The position numbers were made by a program, and so were the translations under genes. From NCBI GenBank assembly GCA_947489665.1, contig CANLEH010000003.1, forward strand, positions 186,001 to 250,000: DNA of 64,000 nucleotides, read 5' to 3'. The DNA is from an uncultured Roseicyclus sp. GTDB lineage: Bacteria > Pseudomonadota > Alphaproteobacteria > Rhodobacterales > Rhodobacteraceae. The notes beneath the pieces were generated by a model that saw only the letters and a program-made list of their open reading frames with translations, was not told where the DNA came from and did no database searches. This document shows positions 32,406 to 49,214 of this stretch, one piece after another. Position 1 is the first letter of the stretch; the number at the start of each line of letters is the position of its first letter.

Positions 32406-32447
32406 CCCTACCCAAATCGAAATTCTATCTTTGAAGGAGTGCCTGAC

Positions 32448-34043
32448 ATGGCCCCCAAAGTCCTCGTCTCAGACAAGCTGAGTGAAACCGCCGTCCAGAT
32501 TTTCCGGGATCGCGGCATCGACGTGACCTTCGACCCGAGCATCGGCAAGGATAAGGAGAAGCTCCTGTCCGTGATTGATCAGTATGATGGTCTTGCCATC
32601 CGTTCCGCCACCAAGGTGACGGAGAAGATCATTGCGCAAGCAGATCGCCTTAAAGTTGTGGGGCGGGCTGGTATTGGGGTCGACAATGTCGACATTCCCA
32701 ATGCGTCGAAGAAGGGCATCATTGTGATGAACACGCCCTTCGGGAACATGATCACCACCGCGGAACATGCGATTGCCATGATGTTTGCCGTGGCGCGGCA
32801 GATCCCGGAGGCCAGCGCCTCGACCCATGCGGGCAAATGGGAGAAGTCGAAATTCATGGGCGTCGAGCTGACCGGCAAGACTCTGGGCGTGATTGGCGCG
32901 GGCAATATCGGCGGGATCGTCTGTGAACGTGGCGTTGGGCTGCGCATGAAGGTGATCGCCTATGATCCATTCCTGAGCGAAGAGCGGGCTGCGAAACTGG
33001 GTGTGACCAAGGTGGAGTTGGATGAGCTGTTCCAGCGGTCTGACTTTATCACGCTGCACGTGCCTGCCACCGACAAGACGCGCGGCATGATCTCAGCCGA
33101 AGCGATTGCCACGATGAAGAAGGGCGTGCGCATTGTGAACTGCGCGCGTGGGGGTTTAGTGGATGAAGAGGCGCTGGCCGAGGCCCTGAAATCCGGCCAC
33201 GTCGCTGGCGCGGCGTTTGATGTGTTCGCAGTGGAGCCAGCGACCGACAGCCCGCTGTTCAACCTGCCGAACGTCGTTGTGACGCCTCACTTGGGCGCGG
33301 CGACGACCGAGGCGCAGGAGAATGTGGCGTTGCAGGTGGCTGAACAGATGTCGGATTACCTGCTGACGGGCGCAGTCTCAAATGCGCTGAACATGCCGAG
33401 CGTGACGGCTGAAGAAGCCGCCGTGATGGGGCCGTGGGTGAAATTGGCTGAGCATCTGGGTGCCTTTGTGGGCCAGCTTACCGATGAGCCAATCAAGAGC
33501 ATTGAGATCGTCTATAACGGTGTGGTCACGGGCATGAACCTGAAGGCGCTGGATTGCGCGGCAATTGCCGGTGTGATGAAGGCCACGAACCCGGATGTGA
33601 ACATGGTGTCGGCCCCTGTGATTGCAAAAGAGCGTGGGATTGAGCTGAGCCAGACCACGCAGGACAAGACCGGCGTGTTCGACGGCTATATCCGGCTGGT
33701 GGTGAAGACCGACAAGCGGGAGCGGTCGATTGCGGGCACATGCTTCAGCGACGGTAAGCCGCGCTTCATCCAGATCAAGGGCATCAACATCGATGCTGAG
33801 ATCGGGGAGCACATGCTCTACACCACCAACGAAGATGTGCCGGGGATTATCGGTGCGCTGGGTCAGACGATGGGGGCGAACGACGTCAACATCGCGAACT
33901 TCACCTTGGGCCGGTCGGGCCCAAAGGGCGAGGCGATTGCGCTGCTGTACCTCGACGCGCCGCCGCCTGCGAAGGCGTTGAAGGACCTGATGGACACGGG
34001 GTTGTTCCAAAGCGTGCAGCCGCTGCAGTTCGACGCGGCGTAA
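32448..34043 (+). CDS. serA: D-3-phosphoglycerate dehydrogenase
   Basis: SerA carries out the first step of serine synthesis. The ATG at 32448 has GAAGGAG at ideal spacing; the GTG listed at 32439 overlaps that site and is unlikely. The 531-residue protein is the long form: NAD-binding GAGNIGGIV near 149-157, catalytic Arg in NCARGGLVDE, Glu, and His in TPHLGAAT. An intervening domain (about 320-450) and a C-terminal ACT domain (about 455-531, MLYTTNEDVPGIIGALG) follow, the latter often the site of serine feedback. The gene ends at a strong terminator-like hairpin. Confidence 0.96.
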   Translation: MAPKVLVSDKLSETAVQIFRDRGIDVTFDPSIGKDKEKLLSVIDQYDGLAIRSATKVTEKIIAQADRLKVVGRAGIGVDNVDIPNASKKGIIVMNTPFGNMITTAEHAIAMMFAVARQIPEASASTHAGKWEKSKFMGVELTGKTLGVIGAGNIGGIVCERGVGLRMKVIAYDPFLSEERAAKLGVTKVELDELFQRSDFITLHVPATDKTRGMISAEAIATMKKGVRIVNCARGGLVDEEALAEALKSGHVAGAAFDVFAVEPATDSPLFNLPNVVVTPHLGAATTEAQENVALQVAEQMSDYLLTGAVSNALNMPSVTAEEAAVMGPWVKLAEHLGAFVGQLTDEPIKSIEIVYNGVVTGMNLKALDCAAIAGVMKATNPDVNMVSAPVIAKERGIELSQTTQDKTGVFDGYIRLVVKTDKRERSIAGTCFSDGKPRFIQIKGINIDAEIGEHMLYTTNEDVPGIIGALGQTMGANDVNIANFTLGRSGPKGEAIALLYLDAPPPAKALKDLMDTGLFQSVQPLQFDAA

Positions 34044-34072
34044 AATTGGCGCTGGCCGCTGATTGATGCTCT

Positions 34073-34104
34073 AACCCTTCGCAAGCAATTGCGGAGGGTT
34101 TTTT
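34073..34104 (+). terminator. serA terminator hairpin that contains the thiolase ribosome-binding site
   Basis: AACCCTTCGCAA and TTGCGGAGGGTT form a 12-bp stem (one G-U pair) with a GCAA loop, followed directly by a run of T. This is a textbook intrinsic terminator 30 bases after the serA stop. The 3' arm includes GGAGGG (34093-34098), the only good ribosome-binding site for the thiolase ATG at 34107, so the same hairpin would also hide that site in any read-through RNA. Confidence 0.8.
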
Positions 34105-34106
34105 AC

Positions 34107-35282
34107 ATGGACGAGATCGTTATTCTGTCGGGCGCACGCACGGCGATTGGGACATTTGGTGGGTCACTTGCGGGAACCACCCCAATCGATACGGGCACAG
34201 TCGTGGCCAAAGCAGCACTGGAGCGCGCCGGTGTTGAGGGTGGCCAGATCGGTCACGTGACCTTTGGCCATGTGATCAACACCGAGCCGCGCGACATGTA
34301 TCTTAGTCGCGTCGCCGCGATGCAGGCGGGCGTGCCGGACACGGTGCCAGCGATGAACGTGAACAGGCTTTGTGGGTCCGGTGCGCAGGCGATTGTCAGC
34401 GTGATCCAGTCGCTTGCGATGGGGGATGCCGATTTTGGCTTGGCCGGCGGCGCGGAAAGCATGAGCCGGTCGCCATATGTAATCCCGCAGGCGCGGTTCG
34501 GGCAGAAGATGGGGGACGTCAAGACGCTCGACATGATGTTGGGCGCTTTGAACTGCCCGTTTGGGACGGGGCATATGGGCGTGACCGCGGAGAATGTCGC
34601 GGATGAGCATGACGTGACGCGGGAGCAGATGGATGCCTTCGCCATGGCCTCGCAGGAGCGGGCGGCGCACGCGATTGAGCAGGGGTATTTTGCGGATCAG
34701 ATCGTGCCGGTTGAGGTCCGCGTCAAGCGCGACATGGTGCAGTTTGAGGTTGATGAGCATCCCAAGGCGACCTCGCTGGAGGCGCTGGGCGGGCTGCGGG
34801 CGGTGTTCCAGAAAGACGGGCGCGTGACGGCGGGCAATGCCAGCGGGATCAACGATGGCGCGGCGGCATTGGTGCTGGCACGCGGCGAGGCGGCGGAGAG
34901 GGCCGGCCTGACGCCAAGGGCGCGCGTGCTGGGTTATGCCCATGCCGGTGTGCGGCCTGAGGTGATGGGCATTGGTCCCGTGCCCGCGGTGGAGAACCTG
35001 TTGGCGAAGACAGGCCTTAGCATTGGGGATTTCGATGTGATCGAATCCAATGAGGCCTTCGCGGCACAGGCGATTGCAGTGAACAAGGGGCTTGGTCTGG
35101 ACCAGGCGAAGGTGAACCCGAATGGCGGCGCGATTGCGCTGGGCCATCCAGTTGGCGCGACGGGTGCGATCATCACGGTGAAGGCGTTGTATGAGCTGGA
35201 GCGGATTGGTGGATCGAAGGCGCTGATCACGATGTGCATCGGCGGCGGTCAGGGCATCGCGCTGGCGATTGAGCGGGTGTGA
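34107..35282 (+). CDS. Acetyl-CoA C-acyltransferase (thiolase)
   Basis: The 391-residue protein is a biosynthetic-type thiolase. The acyl-carrying cysteine is C89 (NRLCGSGAQA), with the catalytic histidine in ALGHPVGATG and the second cysteine in CIGGGQG near the end. MDEIVILSGARTAIGTFGGSL is the conserved N-terminus, which fixes the start at 34107. It could condense two acetyl-CoA (PhaA/AtoB role) or cleave beta-ketoacyl-CoA; sequence alone does not decide, and no phaB or fad gene is adjacent. Its ribosome-binding site lies inside the serA terminator hairpin. Confidence 0.9.
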   Translation: MDEIVILSGARTAIGTFGGSLAGTTPIDTGTVVAKAALERAGVEGGQIGHVTFGHVINTEPRDMYLSRVAAMQAGVPDTVPAMNVNRLCGSGAQAIVSVIQSLAMGDADFGLAGGAESMSRSPYVIPQARFGQKMGDVKTLDMMLGALNCPFGTGHMGVTAENVADEHDVTREQMDAFAMASQERAAHAIEQGYFADQIVPVEVRVKRDMVQFEVDEHPKATSLEALGGLRAVFQKDGRVTAGNASGINDGAAALVLARGEAAERAGLTPRARVLGYAHAGVRPEVMGIGPVPAVENLLAKTGLSIGDFDVIESNEAFAAQAIAVNKGLGLDQAKVNPNGGAIALGHPVGATGAIITVKALYELERIGGSKALITMCIGGGQGIALAIERV

Positions 35283-49180: not shown

Positions 49181-49214
49181 AATTCAAATCGTGATACCAC
49201 GTGATCCGTTGGGA

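Follow-up and report, generated by a model that had tools for sequence, protein, structure and literature searches.

A hairpin between serA and a thiolase gene in an uncultured Roseicyclus sp. raises the question of how a gene is expressed when its ribosome-binding site lies inside the predicted terminator of its neighbor. The window, the 64,000-nucleotide stretch of DNA that was analyzed, carries serC and serA upstream of the thiolase gene. serA (phosphoglycerate dehydrogenase; TIGR01327, 661.7 bits, cut-off 454) occupies 32439–34043 on the + strand with its stop codon at 34041–34043. The BktB-type thiolase gene (34107–35282, + strand) is assigned by NF006552 (652.6 bits, cut-off 565) and falls short of the threshold set for NF042999, the stricter BktB equivalog, in the profile search. 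The ATG at 34107 is the right start because the N-terminus is common to orthologues across the family, and 63 nt separate it from the serA stop codon.

The + strand hairpin (34073–34100) consists of a 5′ arm, AACCCTTCGCAA (34073–34084), a GCAA loop (34085–34088) and a 3′ arm, TTGCGGAGGGTT (34089–34100), that form 12 pairs, six of them G-C and one G-U. The sequence-only reading had proposed that one hairpin terminates serA and hides the thiolase ribosome-binding site, and both parts of this proposal hold as predictions. A G+C-containing stem with T6 directly after it (34099–34104, + strand) has the shape of an intrinsic terminator, and the hairpin is predicted to be that of serA. The Shine-Dalgarno sequence GGAGGG (34093–34098, + strand) lies entirely inside the 3′ arm, there is no other purine-rich site upstream of the thiolase ATG, and only AC stands between the last T (34104) and the ATG. 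No other hairpin on the + strand of the window combines 10 or more pairs with a T-run, and only one of this kind arose in total across 12 Markov resamplings of one strand. The fold of the surrounding 121 nt has an unimpressive z-score of −1.4, probably through dilution of the hairpin by its flanks. The − strand of the window carries another strong terminator at 49181, an 11-pair G+C-rich stem followed by TTTCTTTTTT. Throughout the source genome, 12 matches to GGAG-N0-6-TTTTT-N0-6-ATG were found by pattern search, the basis of all whole-genome counts given here, and only the serA/thiolase match is convincing, so the idea that the genome contains many such hairpins was dropped. A terminator-like hairpin elsewhere in this genome (L226; G000:C2:374233-374251, − strand) is strong, has GGAG in its 3′ arm and precedes an ATG that opens a 72-codon frame, making it a possible second example.

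The hairpin is conserved within the genus. The thiolase gene is present in 13 of 13 genomes, and in 11 it directly follows serA with the same hairpin, Shine-Dalgarno sequence and ATG; these counts are not independent because the genomes are related. The Shine-Dalgarno sequence is 12–14 nt upstream of the ATG in all 11. In the alignment of the 11 stems, 97.7% of cells are paired and both sides have changed in four pairs, compared to 30–57% paired cells in slid controls. The covariation score was matched by 1 of 500 shuffles, a control that is inflated by the kinship of the genomes, which does not affect the slid control. These data establish the hairpin as a real structural feature of the junction.

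Compaction of the junction offers a simple account of the overlap. On this view the hairpin is merely the serA terminator, and shrinkage of the intergenic space brought the Shine-Dalgarno sequence into its 3′ arm; an internal promoter would serve the thiolase, and read-through would be too rare for any block to matter. The very short distance from serA stop to ATG (62–63 nt in four genomes) is consistent with this account, and the geometry recurs in unrelated bacteria, as compaction alone could produce. However, the full overlap is kept in the 11 genomes at gaps that range from 62 to 108 nt, and together with the recurrence this argues that it is not forced by space alone. The parts also stay separate in other genera, for example in genome G118. 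Simple compaction is a less likely explanation, albeit one of appreciable weight.

Two genus genomes lack the hairpin. G009 (locus L013) and G010 (locus L011) have an extra ORF between serA and the thiolase gene that looks metallophosphoesterase-like by eye. Their thiolase Shine-Dalgarno sequence is open, with a modelled opening cost of 3.8–5.4 kcal/mol. The thiolase tree did not resolve the position of this pair. A tree of serA plus thiolase DNA, whose rooting is shaky, groups the two with the hairpin-bearing G007 (98.5/97), and this grouping suggests that the hairpin was lost in the pair.

RNA folding models point to a strong translational block on RNA that enters from serA. In read-through RNA the modelled cost of opening the Shine-Dalgarno sequence is 11.7–17.5 kcal/mol in 11 of 11 hairpin-bearing species, and in RNA from the predicted thiolase start described below it is 2.7–5.0 kcal/mol in the same 11. 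The modelled cost of 12–18 kcal/mol makes a thermosensor unlikely. Translational coupling from serA is also unlikely because the serA stop is at least 29 nt upstream of the stem. A riboswitch or known leader was rejected after no Rfam match was found near the hairpin; no family matched anywhere in 33900–34400 at E values up to 1. The earlier description of the junction as a compact switch is thus not supported, given the lack of an Rfam leader family, the high opening cost and the distant serA stop. The corresponding model is an attenuator, in which read-through RNA of serA would be the main source of thiolase and the hairpin would be opened by a factor, an RNA or a ligand. The position of the hairpin would suit an attenuator, and identical geometry occurs below a TPP riboswitch in Halanaerobium, but the junction lacks an Rfam family, has no visible conserved alternative pairing and contains a conserved predicted promoter, and apart from the promoter-like parts the region ahead of the stem is divergent. 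Conditional opening of this kind appears very improbable.

A candidate sigma70-like promoter for the thiolase gene lies within the junction on the + strand. Its predicted −35 is TTGGCG (34046–34051) and its predicted −10 is TCTAAC (34070–34075), which shares the first three bases of the 5′ arm. TTGGC is found 17–18 nt upstream of TCTAA in 9 of the 11 hairpin-bearing genomes; G011 is without the TTGGC element. Mean between-species identity in the genus is 0.78 and 0.88 for the two hexamers and 0.40 for the spacer (13 nt compared), and the −10 is conserved though it lies largely outside the stem. The promoter is weak by consensus, matching 8 of 12 positions, and was missed by the promoter scan. 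The extension of TCTAAC into the 5′ arm would place the RNA start, 6–8 nt after the −10, at about 34082–34084 (+ strand), the final bases of that arm. The sequence-only reading held that thiolase synthesis needs either a start within the hairpin or a factor that opens it; the conserved promoter-like element favors the first option, and nothing suggests that the hairpin responds to a signal. A sigma54 promoter was also considered. Such promoters have −24/−12 spacing, and the conserved parts are too widely separated for it.

The same predicted promoter position recurs at thiolase genes that have no hairpin. By inspection, this hairpin is absent from 69 thiolase loci of other genera; serA is not the adjacent upstream gene at most of these, and 29 of the 69 were checked systematically. 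Among the other-genus loci with a good promoter score, 73% have the −10 at 24–36 nt upstream of the thiolase ATG, compared to 31% of shuffles; in the window this distance is 31 nt. An operator-like palindrome, GACGCGGCGTA (34032–34042, unstranded), overlaps the serA stop codon and matches 7 of the 8 core positions of GACGNNRCGTC. When the upstream regions are read side by side, this motif is found directly upstream of the thiolase −35 in many genera, and the palindrome-promoter-ATG order is retained before orthologous thiolase genes of many other genera in which the hairpin is missing. Of 89 thiolase upstream regions, 22 match all 8 core positions (resampled sequence, 0.2%) and 43 match 7 or more (resampled sequence, 5.7%); these rates are descriptive, as the palindrome was noticed in the very data counted. 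Regions carrying the palindrome include L038, L042, L050, L060, L074 and L088. In 8 of the 11 hairpin-bearing genomes the palindrome is 27–28 nt before the −10, and no clear copy is seen in G002, G005 or G011. Across 37 cases, 8 of them genus members, the distance from palindrome end to −10 is 27 nt in 22 and 26–28 nt in 36, where about 17% and 50%, respectively, are expected from the combinations searched. The fixed distance links the predicted junction promoter to the one that precedes this gene at other loci. GACGNNRCGTC is thus probably the site of a regulator of the thiolase gene; a search for its regulon returned 11 further regions, mostly intragenic or without a clear promoter, and identified no regulator.

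Cleavage of read-through RNA within the loop or the 5′ arm would leave a translatable 5′ end identical to that of RNA from the predicted start, and processing by an RNase could in this way free the Shine-Dalgarno sequence. At 12 bp the stem is short for an RNase III substrate, and its length speaks against that enzyme. Unlinked orthologues have the palindrome and the promoter spacing in common with the junction, which points instead to a promoter, and RNase processing is a most unlikely source of the thiolase RNA.

The evidence is best accounted for by a junction that acts as a constitutive filter by RNA origin. RNA from the serA side would fold the 12-bp hairpin and most of it would stop at the T-run. 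Any RNA that reads through would retain the hairpin and be poorly translated because the Shine-Dalgarno sequence is buried. RNA from the thiolase promoter, with the palindrome at 34032–34042, the −35 at 34046–34051 and the −10 at 34070–34075, would begin near the end of the 5′ arm, and without the blocking strand its GGAGGG would be open and translated. The junction is therefore probably a compacted double-lock insulator, a terminator combined with a Shine-Dalgarno mask, with thiolase RNA supplied by its own internal promoter; that promoter is also part of the simple compaction account. Constitutive insulation, with the lack of signal response that we infer, is a better reading than a signal-responsive switch, and regulation, expected at the thiolase promoter, probably acts there.

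Related arrangements were found elsewhere. A search for the pattern across bacterial and archaeal genomes gave at least 81 matches in 80 loci, and in at least 21 of the matches listed a long frame begins at the ATG (100 codons or more, or 60 or more at a contig end). In Halanaerobium (L158, L111, L136), an ACCCTCC stem, GGAGGG, T-run and ATG follow in the same order as at the serA/thiolase junction, placing a terminator and buried Shine-Dalgarno sequence before a thiamine-transporter-like ORF. In L158, the locus examined for it, a TPP riboswitch match (RF00059) lies upstream, with 48.8 bits, below the gathering score of 54.3, and E = 5e-9. The Halanaerobium arrangement differs in that a ligand-sensing aptamer precedes the terminator, whereas none does at serA/thiolase. 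Five Sphingomonadales loci (L106, L112, L156, L183, L171) have the terminator/Shine-Dalgarno/ATG overlap before a short ORF, and in this group, four Sandarakinorhabdus-type loci plus L171, TTGACA is 18–19 nt upstream of the stem. The group is a second candidate for a terminator doubling as a translational filter. Such filters with an in-stem start may be a recurrent form of bacterial insulation in very short junctions, a generalization that is offered tentatively and could well fail.

If the proposed mechanism is true, a terminator that holds the Shine-Dalgarno sequence of the next gene is a sign of an internal start, and read-through seen by RNA-seq over such a terminator does not imply expression of that gene. 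The serA/thiolase junction would be a very compact natural insulator of 63 nt, and a timing device of phage T4 would extend to ordinary bacterial metabolism. No chromosomal precedent for a terminator/Shine-Dalgarno overlap with an internal start was found in the open-access literature.

Several known systems share elements of this design. In IS10 and IS50, incoming outside RNA hides the transposase start and own-promoter RNA does not; these are mobile elements with a terminal inverted repeat, whereas serA/thiolase is a fixed gene pair. In Gifsy-1 IsrK, read-through beyond a terminator gives translationally inactive mRNA (PMC4825925), as is predicted at serA/thiolase, but there a short trans-acting RNA opens the mRNA (PMC4825925), and nothing suggests this at serA/thiolase. 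The junction also resembles an arrangement known from T4. There, the hairpin in upstream-started RNA covers the Shine-Dalgarno sequence in the leaders of T4 gene e (lysozyme), soc, 49 and I-TevI, and a promoter at the hairpin gives a translated RNA that lacks the 5′ strand (PMC3014915, PMC2988022). For gene e, the same accounts give about 100-fold less lysozyme from the long transcripts (PMC3014915). Of the gene e/I-TevI features, the paired Shine-Dalgarno sequence is reproduced here in the modelled upstream-started RNA of 11 genomes; the conserved promoter-like element and palindrome would put the start at the hairpin (34082–34084). T4 uses late promoters for timing, whereas the thiolase is a chromosomal metabolic gene with a predicted sigma70-like promoter. 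The serA/thiolase hairpin also bears a terminator T-run, whereas the T4 hairpin is not described as an intrinsic terminator in the portions of those accounts consulted. The principle thus has precedents in T4 gene e and I-TevI, and its fusion with the terminator of an upstream metabolic gene is a variant.
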